Of a stretch of 64,000 nucleotides of DNA, positions 28,370 through 35,333 are shown piece after piece. The stretch spans positions 124,001-188,000 of the forward strand of contig NZ_PVBT01000004.1 in NCBI RefSeq assembly GCF_002980555.1. Reading direction: 5' to 3'. Position 1 is the stretch's first letter; the number at the start of each line of letters is the position of its first letter. Source of the DNA: Phyllobacterium myrsinacearum. Lineage in GTDB: Bacteria > Pseudomonadota > Alphaproteobacteria > Rhizobiales > Rhizobiaceae. Position numbers and translations under genes: made by a program. The notes under the pieces were generated by a model. The model searched no databases, had not been told where the DNA came from, and saw nothing but the letters and a program-made list of their open reading frames with translations.

Positions 28370-28522
28370 GGTAGACACAAGTGAGTTCGCGCCACACAGG
28401 CTGCCAAAGGAAAGTGGAAGACAGATCCTTTCCCAACCGGCTAATCTGCCGAAAACGTCTCGCCGCTGCCGGTGTGCAATCTATGGTGGGGTAGAGCGTG
28501 TAAGCGCAGGAAGTCTCGGCAC

Positions 28523-29380
28523 ATGAATACCGGCGAATTCGAGGATCGACTGAATACACTGCGGCCACGGCTTCACCGCTACTGTGCACGCATGACCGGT
28601 TCGAGCGTGGACGGCGAAGATGTACTGCAAGATACCCTGATCAAGGCCCTGCGCGCACATGCGGAGGGTACGATCGTCGAAAACCTCGAGGCCTGGTTGC
28701 TCCGTATCGCCCATAATGCGAGTCTGGATTTTCTGCGCCGGCGTTCCCGCAGCAATGTGGTTCCGCTTACCGACGATCTGGAAGCCGCGGCGATGCCTGA
28801 AACGGACATCGTCGCCGTTGGCTTTCAGACGTTTCTGCAGCTGCCCGAACTTCAGCGCTGCGCCGTGATCCTCAAGGATGTCCTTGGCCACTCGGTTGAA
28901 GAGATCGCGGCGATTGCCGGCAGTACGCCGGCCGCGGCCAAATCGGCGCTTCAGCGGGGGCGCACCGCATTGCGGCAGCTCGCGCAGGCGCCCGAAGATA
29001 CCCGGCTGCCGCTGATGTCCGATGCGGACAGGCGGAAGATGACCGCTTATGTCCATCTGTTTCGCAGCGGCGATTTCGACGCAATCCGCGCTATGCTCGC
29101 CGATGACGTGAGGCTCGATCTGGTAAACCGCCTGCAATGGAAAGGGCGTGACAAGATCGGCCTTTATTTCACGCGCTATGCGGAAGAGACGAAATGGCGG
29201 TTCGTCTTTGGCGCGGTTGAAGGACAGCCCGCCATGCTTGTCTTCGACGGGACCGGCCCGATGGACAGACCTGCACATTTTGTGCTGATCGGTTGGTCGG
29301 ATAGCCGGATCATGGAGATCAGGGATTTCCTGTTCGCTCCCTATGTGCTCGAAGGTATAAACTGGGTGCGGTTGGGCTAA
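28523..29380 (+). CDS. ECF sigma factor, SigJ type with SnoaL-like C-terminal domain
   Basis: A 285-residue extracytoplasmic-function sigma factor. Region 2 is FEDRLNTLRPRLHRYCARMT with GEDVLQDTLIKALR; region 4 is around 105-155 with LPELQRCAVILKDVLGHSVE and PAAAKSALQRGRTALRQL. After residue 175 it carries an NTF2/SnoaL-like domain (LFRSGDFDAIRAMLADDVRL), as in SigJ-type factors, where this domain may replace a separate anti-sigma factor. AGGAAG precedes the ATG. No anti-sigma gene is adjacent. The neighbouring oxidoreductase genes could be targets, but no promoter match was established. Confidence 0.85.
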   Translation: MNTGEFEDRLNTLRPRLHRYCARMTGSSVDGEDVLQDTLIKALRAHAEGTIVENLEAWLLRIAHNASLDFLRRRSRSNVVPLTDDLEAAAMPETDIVAVGFQTFLQLPELQRCAVILKDVLGHSVEEIAAIAGSTPAAAKSALQRGRTALRQLAQAPEDTRLPLMSDADRRKMTAYVHLFRSGDFDAIRAMLADDVRLDLVNRLQWKGRDKIGLYFTRYAEETKWRFVFGAVEGQPAMLVFDGTGPMDRPAHFVLIGWSDSRIMEIRDFLFAPYVLEGINWVRLG

Positions 29381-29467
29381 AAGCTTATCGTCGAGTTCCA
29401 AACCCACACGGGCTGGCTACCAGCGATCCGGCCATTTGCTGCATGATCTCGTATCGGCGGGTTTACT

Positions 29468-30409
29468 TCAGGCTGCCCAGAAATAGCGAACGATGTGAAA
29501 GAATATGGGGGCCGCGAAAATCAGGCTGTCCGCCCGGTCAAGCATGCCGCCGTGCCCCTCGATCATTTGTCCCCAATCCTTGACGCCGCGGTCGCGCTTG
29601 ATCGCCGAAGCAACGAGCCCGCCGAAGAATCCCATAATGCAGGCAAGTCCCGCCATGAGCCCGGCTTGCAGGACGGTGAACGGGGTCAACCAGGCCAGCG
29701 ATGCGCCGAGCAATGATGCGCTGGCAATGCCGCCGATCAGACCCTCCCAGGTTTTGGAGGGGGAGATTTTCGGTGCAACCTTGTGTTTGCCGAAAAGCTT
29801 ACCGAACACATATTGCAGCACATCGCTGCCCTGAACGGTTACGATCAGGAATGCGATCAAAAGCAATCCCTTGCCCTGAAAGCCGGGGATGGAAAGCGTG
29901 AGCAGGGCTGGAACGTGACTGATGCAGTAAACCGACAGCATGATTCCCCATTGCTGTTCGCTCACGCGTTCGAGAAAGCGCTCCGTGTCGCCCGAGATTG
30001 CAGTCAAGGCAGGCATGGCGAGGAAACAGTAGACGGGCACAAAGATGGAATAGAGCCCGTACCACTCAATCCAGAGAAGATAATACTGGATGGGAATGAT
30101 GATGAGGAACATGCCGATGAGAATAAAGTGATCGCCACGCCGCGTATGGGTGAGTGTCACATATTCGCGCAGCGAGGCAAAAGAGACAAAGGCGAACAGT
30201 AAAATCACGCCAGTTTTGCCGAAGAGAAAAGCGATGGAAATGCTACCGATCATGATCCACCATGCCTTGATGCGCGCGTTGAGATTGACGAGCGTTGAAG
30301 GCAAGACCTCCGTCATGCGCCGGCTTTTCCAGCTAAGCATGGTTGCAATGGCGCTGGCGAGTGTCAGTACACCGAGCAGACCGAGAAAGAGCCAGACCGT
30401 TTCAGCCAT
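29468..30409 (-). CDS. ynbB: CdsA-like phosphatidate cytidylyltransferase (YnbB-like)
   Basis: A 313-residue membrane protein with about eight hydrophobic segments. The family signature is near the C-terminus: SPSKTWEGLIGG, then KRDRGVKDWG and GHGGMLDRADS. It makes CDP-diacylglycerol from phosphatidate and CTP. The start at 30409 (MAETVWLFLG) overlaps the acyltransferase end by 8 bases; a longer frame has no hydrophobic start. It is the last gene of the lipid operon. Its role as a second CdsA serving a dedicated pathway, as proposed for E. coli YnbB, is inferred. AGLUE: the symbol is by operon likeness. Confidence 0.82.
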   Translation of the reverse strand: MAETVWLFLGLLGVLTLASAIATMLSWKSRRMTEVLPSTLVNLNARIKAWWIMIGSISIAFLFGKTGVILLFAFVSFASLREYVTLTHTRRGDHFILIGMFLIIIPIQYYLLWIEWYGLYSIFVPVYCFLAMPALTAISGDTERFLERVSEQQWGIMLSVYCISHVPALLTLSIPGFQGKGLLLIAFLIVTVQGSDVLQYVFGKLFGKHKVAPKISPSKTWEGLIGGIASASLLGASLAWLTPFTVLQAGLMAGLACIMGFFGGLVASAIKRDRGVKDWGQMIEGHGGMLDRADSLIFAAPIFFHIVRYFWAA

Positions 30410-31058
30410 GATTGAGCGCCTTCCGATGTTCCGGCGAAAGTTCGAGCAGAGATTGGCGCGCCCTTTGAAGAAAATCTTTCCGGTCTTCATTCGGCTCAAG
30501 TGCGACCGGTGTGCCGAAAACAACGCGGCACAGGAGAGGGACAGGCAGGAAGGTGCCTTTCGGCAAGACGCGTGACATATTTTCGATCCAGCAGGGAATA
30601 AGTTCCACGTCCGGGCGCGCCAGGGCGAGATTATAGAGACCGGAGCGGAAGCGCAGCAGTGGTTCCTCGGTCATGTTGCGCGTGCCTTCGGGAAAGACAA
30701 TGAGTGAGCTTCCTTCCTGCAATGCATCGAGCATGACGACCATTGGATCCTCCGAACGCTCGACCCAATTGCGGTCAACCAGCACGGTGTTCAGCAAGTC
30801 CTTGGCGAGAATGTGCCGCAATTTATTCCGTTTCCAGTAATCGGCCCCGGCAACAGCACGTGTGCGCTGTCGCTCGCGTGGCGGCAGGCTGGAGGAAAGC
30901 AGAATGAAATCGCCATGACTGCAATGGTTCGCAAAGAAAATGCGTTGCCGGTCCGAAGGCGCGCACCCTTGCCAGATCGGGCGCACGCCGGTAATGCCGC
31001 GAGCCAATCCGGCAAGCACCATAGCGGAAATTCGCCTCAACGTGGTTCTTGTATTCAT
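30402..31058 (-). CDS. PlsC-type 1-acylglycerol-3-phosphate acyltransferase
   Basis: A 218-residue acyltransferase. The catalytic NHX4D motif is N44-H45 to D50 (NHCSHGD) and FPEGTR at 122-127 binds the glycerol phosphate. It would acylate lysophosphatidate or another lysolipid. The ATG at 31058 overlaps the stop of a 34-residue frame by four bases, which favours it over the alternative start 12 bases upstream. E. coli ynbABCD has no acyltransferase in this place, so this is an addition to that operon type. Confidence 0.83.
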   Translation of the reverse strand: MNTRTTLRRISAMVLAGLARGITGVRPIWQGCAPSDRQRIFFANHCSHGDFILLSSSLPPRERQRTRAVAGADYWKRNKLRHILAKDLLNTVLVDRNWVERSEDPMVVMLDALQEGSSLIVFPEGTRNMTEEPLLRFRSGLYNLALARPDVELIPCWIENMSRVLPKGTFLPVPLLCRVVFGTPVALEPNEDRKDFLQRARQSLLELSPEHRKALNHG

Positions 31059-31159
31059 CTGCGCCCCCACAACCCATAGGTTGTAATTACAGCGAATAGA
31101 ACAAGTAAAACTGCAAAAGCAAGATGCAGTTTCAACAAGAGGCGGCTTGTTGTAGCCAT
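31055..31159 (-). CDS. Possible 34-residue single-span membrane peptide
   Basis: A tiny frame, MATTSRLLLKLHLAFAVLLV and onward to TTYGLWGRR, with one hydrophobic helix (about 8-28) flanked by basic ends. Its TGA overlaps the acyltransferase ATG as ATGA, like other junctions in this operon. A weak AAGG lies about 15 bases before the ATG. It may be a small partner protein of the lipid enzymes or a leader that couples translation. Support is positional and by composition only. Confidence 0.45.
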   Translation of the reverse strand: MATTSRLLLKLHLAFAVLLVLFAVITTYGLWGRR

Positions 31160-31232
31160 GACGCCATGGCCGCTACCTTGGCATGCAAATGGCGGGCGAA
31201 TGCAGAGGCGCATTTACTCATGGTTGTTTCGT

Positions 31233-32561
31233 CTATTGAGCAAAAAGCACCATGTCTTCCGTCAAATGAATGCGCCTGCCGCCAGCTTCAATGACCCGGA
31301 TTGCGTCAGCTGCGGTTTTGACATCGCCAAACTGCAAAAGCCAAACGGCAATTGCCGCCGCACTGCGCTGGAAACCCAGTGCGCAACAGACGAGAACTGG
31401 GCCTTTGCTCCGGGCAAGTTCGATGGCGTCGGCCGCATTGTGCAATTCATCGTGTTGAGGCGAAACGAGATCAAGCGTCGGGAATGACCGCCATTCAATC
31501 GTCATACCGGAAGGCTTTGCCAGTTCGGCGGTCAGGTCAATGACGGTCTTGAACTTCGGCAATTCAGATATCCGCGGCAGCCGGCCCAGATACACGTTCT
31601 TGCCAATCGCAACAGAGGGCGGGAGGTGGCGTGTCCAGATCCGGCTGTTAAGAATGGCACCAAGGCGGTAAGGGGCCAGCAGCCATGTACTGGCGAGGGA
31701 AAGCGTGCCGTCCATGCATTTTTGAAAGATGGCGGGTCCTGCACCGAAATAACCGATGGATACGATCCCGAGGGCCAGCGCCGGCCACAGGAAAAACAGG
31801 AATGCCGCCGAGGCCGGCGTTCCGATGATCGTTGCAAGCAGGAAGATCGTACCGGCCACCGCATAACAGGCGCCAATGCGCCGGGCCCTGCGATCCCCGG
31901 TCAAGCGGAATGCGGCCACGGGTGAGGGATTGTGTGCCGGGAAGAGCCAGAGAGCAAAAAGACCCAAAAGCAGGCCGGTGGGGATATCGATAAAATGATG
32001 CTGGTAGGTCGTGAGAACGGAAATACCGATCAATGCGCACCAGAGATGCCAGATCCAAAGAACAATACCCGACAGGCGAACGCGCCAATGCGTCCAGATA
32101 ATCGCAAGGAGAGCGATATGAAGCGAGGGCGCCTGGTTGAAGGGCTTGTCAAAGCCACCCAACATATCGAACAGGAAGCCTGATGCGCCGCTGGTTGGCG
32201 GCTTGTGGAAGACGACGGTCAGGGGAAACGCGATGAAGCAGGTAACCGCGATGGTCTGTGCTGTCAGGTAACGCGTCGCCAGGCGATCGACCTCAGCAGT
32301 CGTATCGTTAAAGAACAAAGAAAGTCCGTAGAACAGGTTGATCGACCAATAGGGAAAAATGGTCCAGGCAATGAACGGAATGGCGTGTTCCCAGGCAAAG
32401 GTGATATTGGGAACGTTCTCCCGCTGCGAGGCAAGCCAGTTGGCTGTCCCATAGGTCGCGTAGAACAATGGTGCGAGGCAGACGAGCCAGATCAGCGCGC
32501 GCTTTGCAACGGCGCCATTCAAGCGCCATTGTCCAATCGGGGTGACGGTGTGTTCGGTCAT
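31233..32561 (-). CDS. ynbD: PAP2 phosphatase fused to a dual-specificity phosphatase (YnbD-like)
   Basis: A 442-residue protein. The N-terminal part (about 20-290) is a multi-span PAP2-type lipid phosphatase: PSLHIA in the middle and YQHHFIDIPTG as the His-Asp motif. The C-terminal domain from about 300 is a cysteine-based dual-specificity phosphatase with C393-ALGFQ-R399 (CX5R). E. coli YnbD has the same layout. The mitochondrial PTPMT1, also of the dual-specificity fold, dephosphorylates phosphatidylglycerophosphate, so a lipid-phosphate substrate is plausible. It overlaps the hydrolase-methyltransferase gene by four bases. Confidence 0.85.
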   Translation of the reverse strand: MTEHTVTPIGQWRLNGAVAKRALIWLVCLAPLFYATYGTANWLASQRENVPNITFAWEHAIPFIAWTIFPYWSINLFYGLSLFFNDTTAEVDRLATRYLTAQTIAVTCFIAFPLTVVFHKPPTSGASGFLFDMLGGFDKPFNQAPSLHIALLAIIWTHWRVRLSGIVLWIWHLWCALIGISVLTTYQHHFIDIPTGLLLGLFALWLFPAHNPSPVAAFRLTGDRRARRIGACYAVAGTIFLLATIIGTPASAAFLFFLWPALALGIVSIGYFGAGPAIFQKCMDGTLSLASTWLLAPYRLGAILNSRIWTRHLPPSVAIGKNVYLGRLPRISELPKFKTVIDLTAELAKPSGMTIEWRSFPTLDLVSPQHDELHNAADAIELARSKGPVLVCCALGFQRSAAAIAVWLLQFGDVKTAADAIRVIEAGGRRIHLTEDMVLFAQ

Positions 32562-34336
32562 GTCCGCTCAGCGATGGAAACCGTGAATATGCCCCACTCG
32601 TCGACAAGCTGGTCGATCTTCTTGAAACCTGCCGCTGCAACCAGCTGATCCATTTCAGCCTGTGTCCGGCGGCGCATAATCCACGCTTCGCCGCCACGAT
32701 GCGAGGTGAGCGCACGTGCAATCATTTCCAGTTGCGGATGCCACGGCTGGTTTGTGTAGATCAGCAAGCTGCCGGATTGCATCGACGTTGCAAGGCCGTC
32801 AAGCGAGCGCTTGATAAGCGCGTTGTCGGGAAAGAGCTCGTAAAGACCGGATACAATCGCCAGATCAGGCGCAGGCTGGATTGCAGTCAGTTGTTCGGCA
32901 TCGAAAGCATCCGCCTGATGAAAGCTCGCCATATCCTGGATGCCTCTCTCGGCGATGGATTTGCGTCCGGCATCGACATTGATCGGCGCATAGTCCTGCA
33001 GCCGGACGCTTGCCGGTTTGACGTCGGCTTTGGCAATCGCGTCGAGGATATAACGGCCATGGCCGGCAGCGATATCGAGAATATGCGTGGTGCGGCCGGC
33101 GTCCCGCAATCTTGCCAGAGCGAAGCCGATAAGCTCTTGCAGATGCAGCTTGCGCTGACGGATGCCGCGCCAGCCGATCGCATTGAGGAACTGCTTGTCG
33201 ATGAGCCTGCCTCCCGGTCCCATTCCTCTCGGTTCGTTCTCATAGACGTAGTCGAGGGTGGAGCCAGAATCGAAACCGGTCTCGACGCCCGTTTTCAGCC
33301 CCTTTGAGAACAATGCACTGAAGCGGATGGACGAGCGGTAGATTGCCCAATAGAGACCTTTCAAGGAAAGCAGGTCGTGCGGGGATGACAGCCTGTCCTG
33401 TTCATCGCGGGTAAAGCCGGTTTGATGGGCGTTCGTCACGTCCAGCGGCGCCGGTTCTGCGTCGAAGCATGCGAGAATGAACCGGCGTGCATGCGCCACG
33501 GCAATGGCGCGCTCCTTCTCGCCAAGAGTGTCGTGGTAAAATCCCTTGAGCACGTGACGTTCTTTGAGGGGGTGGGCCAGATTTTCATAGAAACGATGCT
33601 GAGGCTCGTGCCGGACAACCCAGTCGCTTCCGGAGATGAGCAGCTGTGTCGGCACGATGATCGCACGGGCGTCATCAACCACCCGTTCAGCGTTTGTATA
33701 AAGATCGAGCAGTATATTCGATGCAATGGCCCGCGTGACCAGCGGGTCATTGTCGAACGACGCGATGCGCGCGGGATCATGGGTCAGAAACTTGGCTTTG
33801 ACATAGGAATTGACAAAGAATTGTCCTTTCAATTTCTGCCAGAGCCAGATGCCTTCACGAGCGAACGGAACATAGAGTTTCACGCTGAATGCGGGAGAAG
33901 CAAGCACAAGTGCCCGGATACGGGGCGCGTAGTCATGGACCCAGGTCGCCGCGAGCACGGCACCAACCGACTGGGCGACAACAGCGATGTCCTCGATGGC
34001 AAAACCGCCGGTTTCACATATGTGCTTTACGAAACTGTCGAGATCGCGCACCGAGGTTGCAAAGGATGGAGAGTAGCCGCGTTCGCCCGGTGAACGGCCA
34101 TGGCCTCGGGCATCCCAGGCATAGAAGGTGAAATCACCAAGGCCAAGTTCCTCGACCAGATGTGCAACGCGGCCACCATGTTCATGACCGCGATGCAGAA
34201 GAACAATTGCACCCTTCGGCTTTCCCGATCTTGCCGGCCATTGCCGATAGAAAAGTTCGGTCCCGTCATTTGTCGCAAAGGTGTCTTCCCGTGCTGCACC
34301 GGATGCCGCAGGATTGGAGGATGGGTCTGTCGACAT
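32558..34336 (-). CDS. ynbC: Alpha/beta hydrolase fused to a class I methyltransferase (YnbC-like)
   Basis: A 592-residue fusion. Residues about 20-285 form a monoacylglycerol-lipase-like alpha/beta hydrolase: HRGHEHGGR oxyanion loop, WDARGHGRS, nucleophile S123 in AQSVGA, acid D238 and base H268. Residues about 310-592 form a SAM-dependent methyltransferase with motif I ILDIAAGHGRY at 419-429. The start at 34336 (MSTDPSS) follows the CDP-alcohol transferase by 28 bases; the longer frame runs antisense into that gene. E. coli YnbC has the same fusion. A lipase plus methylase acting on one head group or acyl ester is inferred. Confidence 0.85.
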   Translation of the reverse strand: MSTDPSSNPAASGAAREDTFATNDGTELFYRQWPARSGKPKGAIVLLHRGHEHGGRVAHLVEELGLGDFTFYAWDARGHGRSPGERGYSPSFATSVRDLDSFVKHICETGGFAIEDIAVVAQSVGAVLAATWVHDYAPRIRALVLASPAFSVKLYVPFAREGIWLWQKLKGQFFVNSYVKAKFLTHDPARIASFDNDPLVTRAIASNILLDLYTNAERVVDDARAIIVPTQLLISGSDWVVRHEPQHRFYENLAHPLKERHVLKGFYHDTLGEKERAIAVAHARRFILACFDAEPAPLDVTNAHQTGFTRDEQDRLSSPHDLLSLKGLYWAIYRSSIRFSALFSKGLKTGVETGFDSGSTLDYVYENEPRGMGPGGRLIDKQFLNAIGWRGIRQRKLHLQELIGFALARLRDAGRTTHILDIAAGHGRYILDAIAKADVKPASVRLQDYAPINVDAGRKSIAERGIQDMASFHQADAFDAEQLTAIQPAPDLAIVSGLYELFPDNALIKRSLDGLATSMQSGSLLIYTNQPWHPQLEMIARALTSHRGGEAWIMRRRTQAEMDQLVAAAGFKKIDQLVDEWGIFTVSIAERT

Positions 34337-34364
34337 AGGCTTGCTCCGGAAGCAGGATTGATTT

Positions 34365-34973
34365 TCAGGAATTGGCGCGGTGCAGGCCCGCACGAATACG
34401 GTTGAAGGCGGTGACAATGGATAGGACGGCCATGAGAGGGAAAACCCAGCTGAACCATGACGGCAAGATGATGCCGCTACCAATCAGCGCGGCAATGATG
34501 CCGAGGGCCAATGCGCGGTCGCTTTTTCCGAATGGCCCGTCATAACCGCGCCCGCCTCCGGTCATGACGCCAAGCACACCGGCATATTCGGCAATCATCG
34601 CTGTAATGGCAAAGGCAACCACTCCTGCAGCGGCAAACGGGGCAACAAGTACGAATGGAAGGATCAAGGCCACATCCGAAATGATATCGCCGACCTCATT
34701 CAGATATGCGCCGAGTTTCGATGCCTGCCCGAATTCACGAGCCATCATTCCATCAATGGCGTTGAGTGCCATGCGGACAAAAAGCACCAATGGCAACAGC
34801 CAGAAAAGCGGCGTGATTTCGGGGAAAAGCGCAATCAATGCACCCGTTGCAACCGAGATGAGCATTGCGGCTGTCGTAACCTGATTGGCGGTGGCGCCAG
34901 CGCTGACAAGACGAGAGGCCAAGGGGCGCAGCAGAGTCTGAAAAGCCGGTTTGATCGCGTAAAGTGTCGGCAT
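34365..34973 (-). CDS. ynbA: CDP-alcohol phosphatidyltransferase-family protein (YnbA-like), altered Asp motif
   Basis: A 202-residue membrane protein with about six hydrophobic segments. The CDP-alcohol phosphatidyltransferase motif D-x2-D-G-x2-A-R-x8-G-x3-D-x3-D is present at 71-96 but reads N71-x2-D74-G75-x2-A78-R79-x8-G88-x3-N92-x3-D96: two of the four metal-binding aspartates are asparagines, confirmed in the codons. D100 follows nearby. It would join CDP-diacylglycerol to an alcohol or alcohol phosphate, but metal binding must differ from the canonical site. It is the first gene of the operon. Confidence 0.85.
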   Translation of the reverse strand: MPTLYAIKPAFQTLLRPLASRLVSAGATANQVTTAAMLISVATGALIALFPEITPLFWLLPLVLFVRMALNAIDGMMAREFGQASKLGAYLNEVGDIISDVALILPFVLVAPFAAAGVVAFAITAMIAEYAGVLGVMTGGGRGYDGPFGKSDRALALGIIAALIGSGIILPSWFSWVFPLMAVLSIVTAFNRIRAGLHRANS

Positions 34974-35093
34974 GAAATCACCCCCTGGTTGTGTTCAATT
35001 TCACCGCTCAACACCTTGTAGCAGAAAATCCGCTTCAGGCTGGTTTTCCGCATGGGATAATTGTTTTTGAAGATGAAATCACTTCCTTTACCC

Positions 35094-35333
35094 TTAACGC
35101 GCAACGGCTTTAAATGCGTCGAGCGTTGGTGCAGGGATCATAGCAGCAACCTTCAAGCCCTAAGCTTCGTGGTCTGTGCGCGCCGCGGCAGCGTTCATGC
35201 TCATGTCGTCCTCGACGGCGATCTCGATGAAGCGAATGTTGTGGCCGGGAATATGTGCGGCTGTCCGGGCTTTCGTCAGCGCGTGATGCAAGCCGGCCTC
35301 GGGCGAAGACCATTGGGCCGGCGCGTTAACCAT
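35094..35333 (-). pseudogene. Small gene interrupted by an in-frame amber codon
   Basis: An open frame starting MVNAPAQWSSPEAGLHHALT at 35333 with GAGAG upstream runs 57 codons to a TAG at 35160-35162 and then stays open in the same frame for GLKVAAMIPAPTLDAFKAVA and a final TAA at 35094. The two halves read as one protein-like sequence, so a single base change probably created the stop. The family is not recognised. It could instead be a 57-residue gene with chance coding downstream. Confidence 0.4.

Follow-up and report, generated by a model that had tools for sequence, protein, structure and literature searches.

A trimmed member of the Arc1/Ynb family of phospholipid operons in Phyllobacterium myrsinacearum, with an altered metal-binding motif in its CDP-alcohol phosphotransferase homologue

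A stretch of 64,000 nucleotides of the Phyllobacterium myrsinacearum genome (contig NZ_PVBT01000004.1, positions 124,001 to 188,000; the window) carries at positions 29468-34973 five minus-strand genes, in the order A, C, D, P and B, that are a trimmed member of a known and partly understood family, Arc1/Ynb. We lean towards the view that this is an accessory operon, which makes or remodels a non-housekeeping envelope glycerophospholipid as a defence against membrane attack; our best guess for its product is an inducible, probably methylated phospholipid outside housekeeping synthesis. The evidence comes from the conserved gene content of related loci, from the presence of separate housekeeping genes in the same genome, and from the published defence role of arc1 in Pseudomonas aeruginosa.

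The operon and its genes

A first-pass annotation of the window had described five genes on one strand and likened them to ynbABCD of Escherichia coli. All five are present with the expected domain types (Table 1), although a remnant of a sixth gene, X, at 31055-31221 had been overlooked. Gene C encodes an alpha/beta hydrolase, similar to monoacylglycerol lipases, fused to a Methyltransf_20 methyltransferase. The two domains of gene D score slightly below their curated cut-offs (PAP2_3, 25.8 bits against 27; DSPc, 30.2 bits against 33.5). C and D overlap by 4 bp, and P and B by 8 bp. The starts of C, P and B were placed at ATG codons, as the probable ones, in preference to longer open reading frames (ORFs) that begin with TTG or GTG. 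No promoter-like site was found by a consensus promoter scan of 29300-35300.

Table 1. Features of the operon in the window
Feature	Position	Strand	Description
Gene A (YnbA/Arc1A-like)	34365..34973	-	202 aa, CDP-alcohol phosphotransferase superfamily; PF01066 27.1 bits, cut-off 22
Altered motif of A	34686..34763	-	N71-x2-D74-G-x2-A-R-x8-G-x3-N92-x3-D96; Asn replaces the superfamily's Asp at positions 1 and 3
Gene C (YnbC-like)	32558..34336	-	ATG at 34336, 592 aa; Hydrolase_4 225 bits, Methyltransf_20 477 bits
Gene D (YnbD-like)	31233..32561	-	442 aa; a PAP2_3 membrane domain joined with a dual-specificity-type phosphatase
X remnant, between D and P	31055..31221	-	167 bp, against 411 bp in congeners L085 and L086
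34-codon ORF in X remnant	31055..31159	-	covers the end of X, with a single predicted membrane helix; stop overlaps start of P
Gene P	30402..31058	-	ATG at 31058, 218 aa, PlsC-type acyltransferase; PF01553 59 bits
Gene B (YnbB-like CdsA paralogue)	29468..30409	-	ATG at 30409, 313 aa; phosphatidate cytidylyltransferase family, PF01148 232 bits

The kinship to ynbABCD was borne out. The E. coli K-12 genes (b1408-b1411) are orthologues of A, B, C and D, the window's C is 55% identical to YnbC, and YnbA has the same altered motif as the window's A. The K-12 operon differs in its gene order, A-B-C-D, and in having neither a PlsC gene nor X. Expression of ynbA is reportedly activated by BglJ-RcsB, according to the accessible part of PMC12871917.

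Arrangement in related loci

To describe the family, 118 loci were collected (the window, E. coli K-12, and sets of 36 and 80 others), of which 112 are distinct and 102 have enough flanking sequence for the arrangement to be read; the flanks of the other ten distinct loci were too short. Since the search went through C, every locus has C by design. A query led by the C of the window supplied 80 of the 118 loci as its best matches, and close relatives therefore weigh heavily in the counts that follow. The order A-C-D-X-P-B is the usual form, with 64 of the 102 loci. A divergent A followed by C-D-X-P-B occurs in 14 loci, and a divergent A with C-D-X, B and P being absent nearby, in 11 Rhizobium-type loci; A-C-D-P-B is found in two (the window and its closest relative, L084), A-C-P-B in two, and nine arrangements are found once each. 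Overall, A is present in 101 loci, D in 97, X in 93, B in 90 and P in 89. Because the same genes recur side by side so widely, the gene set is not a chance array. The window has five of the family's genes (A, C, D, P, B) together in a single cluster.

The first-pass annotation had taken the PlsC acyltransferase for an addition to ynbABCD. The frequency of P points the other way: PlsC is an ordinary component of the family, and E. coli K-12, which lacks it, is a reduced form. A Citrobacter plasmid (NZ_CP053574) has P, in the order A-B-P-C-D, together with a 136-aa ORF that takes the place of X and scores weakly against the X profile (15.4 bits). This copy and one on an E. coli plasmid (NZ_CP027341) adjoin transposase or insertion-sequence genes. 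The enterobacterial plasmid copies resemble the window in gene content, A-B-P-C(-D), and in addition lie beside mobile-element genes; they differ from it in gene order, and D of the E. coli plasmid is cut short. Of the enterobacterial plasmid copies, those at L176 6004-11590 and L177 6004-9921 lie beside Tn3 or IS66-type genes, with D cut short in L177.

Methyltransf_20 was detected in 27 of 398 sampled genomes of the phylum (13 of 213 genera, the window's genus included), and in 9 of 21 Phyllobacterium genomes. Among eight other Phyllobacterium loci, only L084 has the window's downstream flank, which indicates that the operon sits at different genomic places. Two pairs of loci of this genus, L086 and L095, and L090 and L097, are identical. 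The sole flanking gene common to L084 encodes an ECF-type (extracytoplasmic function) sigma factor with a SnoaL-like domain (28472-29380), convergent with the operon.

Outside the main group the gene set varies. A Fusobacterium locus has C-A-B, and L092 and L093 have methyltransferase-A-B-P. A cyanobacterial plasmid, from Pseudanabaena (L178 6001-9156), has only A-B-P-methyltransferase and adjoins nif genes. In a Moraxella plasmid (L179 3315-8489) one ORF comprises A and the hydrolase, and is followed by methyltransferase, patatin-like phospholipase, short-chain dehydrogenase/reductase and CdsA-like genes. In Caballeronia (L210 5230-8594), A, P and B lie beside a family 2 glycosyltransferase, and C, D and X are absent from the 14.6 kb of the locus. 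A C homologue of Kosakonia (L180 4170-5798), whose hydrolase half is without the usual Ser motif, is found with no A or B in a cluster resembling fatty-acid-synthesis clusters, beside acyl carrier protein, ketosynthase, MaoC and FabG genes. In L106 (C) and L111 (D, P and B) each gene appears as two ORFs, which may reflect frameshifts or assembly errors. An invariant core of CdsA, A and methyltransferase was considered and is contradicted by Caballeronia, which has A, P and B and no C. No single gene set is invariant, and D and X are the genes most easily lost outside the main group.

A remnant of gene X

Intact X, which would occupy the position of PA2538 in arc1 of P. aeruginosa, encodes a membrane protein about 136-151 residues long, directly after D. 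For two X sequences, two or three helices were predicted with a simple hydropathy script, and neither sequence matched a Pfam or NCBIfam family above cut-off. The window does not have an intact X, though X occurs in most loci. Its remnant retains both ends of the gene; the interior is gone, with a net loss of 244 bp and a shift of the frame. L084 shares this loss. Between the two remnants the 3' block is 95% identical and the other end 74%, and within the 34-codon ORF all six differences alter the residue. An internal promoter before P was considered and set aside, since the consensus scan gave no site and the 3' end of X, though well kept, is no outlier beside coding windows.

X is common rather than universal: E. 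coli K-12 is among the loci that likewise have no X. The dN/dS values between the window and L084, both lacking X, are 0.16 (A), 0.09 (C), 0.22 (D), 0.08 (P) and 0.08 (B). Between these two species, purifying selection acts on all five genes that remain.

Gene A has an altered metal-binding motif

In the CDP-alcohol phosphotransferase superfamily, the four Asp residues of the motif DxxDGxxAR...GxxxDxxxD bind two metals (accessible parts of PMC6506517 and PMC4634129). According to the former, the Asp residues at positions 1 and 3 of Mycobacterium tuberculosis PgsA1 bind Mg-1, and that at position 3 also binds Mg-2. Gene A has Asn at both positions. N71 and N92 are kept in all 110 aligned A sequences and in L176, L177, L178, L179, L181 and L210 (116/116), whereas positions 2 and 4 remain Asp in the 110 sequences, with one gap at position 4. 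As a control, 32 paralogues were taken from 15 related genomes, including the four of the window's own genome. Three failed to fit the pattern, and none of the 29 readable ones has Asn at positions 1 and 3; 25 of these were read directly, and four were caught in a shifted register, their Asp being read by eye. No report of the Asn pair was found in open-access full text, and the two-Asn active site is apparently new there. The first-pass annotation had overlooked the altered motif; given the motif, an ordinary phosphatidyltransferase step is not to be assumed.

We considered whether A could be a plain phosphatidylinositol-phosphate (PIP) synthase, with D as its phosphatase, so that the operon would yield phosphatidylinositol. 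The two NCBIfam models that A matches best are archaetidylinositol-phosphate synthase and PIP synthase, and the nearest solved structures, compared by sequence, are AF2299 and the mycobacterial PIP synthase (E 8e-7 to 3e-6). A thus belongs to the same fold family by sequence, and its R192 aligns with R195, a residue that binds phosphate in M. tuberculosis PgsA1. However, the model scores lie far under their cut-offs (77.6 bits against 180, and 53.7 against 170), the Asn residues depart from the motif, and the residue after D96 is Ile97, whereas users of inositol phosphate need Arg94 there (accessible part of PMC6506517). D, furthermore, is dispensable. This explanation is highly improbable. 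Against the pgsA models A scores 20 bits, the cut-offs being 304 and 109; motif and scores together disfavour a plain PIP or phosphatidylglycerol synthase.

Alternatively, A could be a non-catalytic or differently acting homologue, such as a scaffold, or a binder or hydrolase of CDP-diacylglycerol, that presents lipid to C. The invariant Asn pair, at positions whose Asp residues bind Mg-1 and Mg-2 in PgsA1, would fit such a role, as would the Moraxella ORF that joins A and the hydrolase. Conservation of D74, G75, G88, D96 and R192 suggests instead that an active site is maintained, and we regard a non-catalytic or differently acting A as unlikely.

Catalytic residues of C, D, P and B

The other four proteins keep their catalytic residues almost throughout. 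In C, Ser123, Asp238 and His268 of the hydrolase are present in all sequences that reach them (109-110 of 112, the rest being gaps), and the S-adenosylmethionine motif residues D421, G425 and G427 in 112/112. D has S146 and H148 in 106/106, and Cys393 and Arg399 of CX5R in 101/106, with five gaps. The HX4D motif of P is found in 94/95 (one gap), and the CdsA signature residues of B in 95-96 of 96. Among solved structures, monoacylglycerol lipases come closest to the C hydrolase; the methyltransferase half gave weak matches only (best E 7e-4), one of them to a cyclopropane-fatty-acid synthase. With the PADLOC anti-phage models, A, D, P and B had no match. The sole match, a weak one of C to mad2 (18.5 bits over the methyltransferase), was taken as shared fold, and a known anti-phage system was rejected.

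The operon is additional to housekeeping lipid synthesis

The genome has another cdsA (G000:C1:1249218), a pgsA, a second pgsA-like gene, pssA and pcs, all outside the operon. The operon is therefore an additional set, as the first-pass annotation had proposed; a role as the housekeeping replacement was rejected, B not being the only cdsA copy and pgsA, pssA and pcs lying elsewhere. The second pgsA-like gene, at G000:C6:157826-158296 and near the pgsA at C6:172394, scores 104.2 bits against a pgsA cut-off of 109.1.

Published work on E. coli, as far as the accessible parts of the papers go, is in line with this. YnbB cannot replace CdsA (PMC6362211), and YnbD replaces neither phosphatidylglycerophosphate (PGP) nor undecaprenyl-pyrophosphate (C55-PP) phosphatases (PMC7413402), so that their products would not be the housekeeping ones. 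YnbB has also been linked to the MPIase glycolipid, and the operon could serve MPIase synthesis: overproduction of YnbB raises MPIase (PMC6362211), and the title of a 2019 paper, known from a reference list, calls YnbB dedicated to MPIase. In the accessible part of PMC6362211, however, deletion of ynbB caused no significant change in MPIase, and such a role would leave C, D and the linkage with the methyltransferase unexplained. We consider it very unlikely.

Relation to arc1 of P. aeruginosa

The family has a published role in Pseudomonas aeruginosa. In the accessible part of PMC8926400, PA2541-36 is described as arc1A-F, six genes of which five are phospholipid-related and four resemble phosphatidylglycerol-synthesis enzymes. 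The operon is induced by Gac/Rsm and is required by P. aeruginosa under attack by the type VI secretion system (T6SS) of Burkholderia thailandensis, the effector being left open there. According to the accessible text of PMC12663445, arc1A is important against lipase effectors. The first-pass annotation had stated that ynbABCD has no known product; this still holds in the searchable literature, while the family does have a published role as arc1.

The window's operon and arc1A-F are alike in that the family form is a phospholipid operon of six genes, of the kinds that are described for arc1. PA2536 is annotated as a phosphatidate cytidylyltransferase (accessible part of PMC8190622), in agreement with B as the last gene. 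The deletion primers given in PMC8926400 show that PA2541 starts Met-Ile-Ser and PA2536 Met-Asn-Glu; among 11 loci taken to be of Pseudomonadaceae, probably Pseudomonas, A begins MIS in seven and B begins MNQ in three. The window differs in having X only as a remnant. From gene content, the PA2536 annotation and the start codons we infer that the six-gene form of the family probably corresponds to arc1 of P. aeruginosa. The defence role may by analogy carry over to Phyllobacterium.

Several observations weigh against a defensive phospholipid operon. The P. aeruginosa locus was found by primer pattern in 0/25 and 0/298 genomes (overlapping sets), and the letters of the arc1 primers had no exact match in 173 loci and no close match in the 11 tested. 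In the accessible part of PMC12663445, arc1A is auxiliary to arc3A. Among 21 Phyllobacterium genomes, nine have the operon, seven a type VI sheath gene and two both, which is about chance. The methyltransferase is missing from the Caballeronia locus, and B and P are missing near the 11 Rhizobium-type loci. A is without two metal-binding Asp residues and may be no ordinary transferase, and the searchable literature names no lipid product of the family.

Type VI sheath (VipB) genes lie at G000:C9:91059-93559 in the genome of the window. A link of the operon with the host's own T6SS within the genus was rejected, the overlap of operon and sheath gene being about that expected by chance.

The arc1 data would also fit a repair pathway, in which the hydrolase clears the lyso-lipids that an attacker's phospholipases leave behind, and ordinary phosphatidylglycerol is rebuilt from the fragments by P, B, A and D. 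The protection by arc1A against lipase effectors (PMC12663445), the likeness of four arc1 genes to phosphatidylglycerol-synthesis enzymes (PMC8926400) and the proximity of the C hydrolase to monoacylglycerol lipases are all consistent with repair. It would, however, leave the methyltransferase without a task. In addition, the accessible reports on E. coli have YnbD failing as a PGP phosphatase (PMC7413402) and YnbB as a CdsA (PMC6362211), A has the altered motif and its low pgsA scores, and P is not near 13 of the 102 loci. Repair of ordinary phosphatidylglycerol is a secondary and rather doubtful alternative to a distinct, non-housekeeping phospholipid.

Proposed function

For the distinct phospholipid, the following pathway can be envisaged. 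P would acylate lysophosphatidate to phosphatidate, from which B would make a dedicated pool of CDP-diacylglycerol. A would transfer the phosphatidyl group to an acceptor, via a metal site unlike that of every characterised relative compared. The methyltransferase half of C would methylate the product or its head group, and the hydrolase half would trim or clear lyso-lipids. D would remove phosphate in the versions that have it, and X may be a small membrane partner, lost in the window. The order of these steps and the methylation of the product are inferred.

A methylated product had been suggested by the first-pass annotation and is plausible. In a query of plasmids with A, a methyltransferase match was also present in 24 of the 25 records listed (of 30). 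A and the methyltransferase usually occur together and D is easily lost, which favours methylation of the product of A, rather than dephosphorylation, as the common step. As a step common to the whole family, finishing of the lipid by a phosphatase, as had also been suggested, is in doubt: D is absent from 5 of the 102 loci and from Pseudanabaena, Fusobacterium and Caballeronia, and YnbD, in the accessible part of PMC7413402, replaces no PGP or C55-PP phosphatase.

A more far-reaching proposal, which we put forward only tentatively, is that A founds a distinct, Asn-defined class of CDP-alcohol phosphotransferases whose undescribed, usually methylated phospholipid is the active molecule of arc1/ynb defence. 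K-12 ynbABCD, Pseudomonas arc1 and the enterobacterial plasmid copies might then all represent a single mobile immunity, based on a lipid, against toxins that attack membranes.

The comparison joins two literatures, on the unexplained ynbABCD genes of E. coli and on arc1 defence in P. aeruginosa. The searchable papers on each do not cite the genes of the other; the term "ynb" has 0 occurrences in the main text of the arc1 paper (PMC8926400), as far as that text was accessible. The two-Asn motif raises the question of how a CDP-alcohol phosphotransferase works, or what it does, with two of the four metal ligands missing, and the link between ynbABCD and arc1 makes both testable in E. coli K-12.

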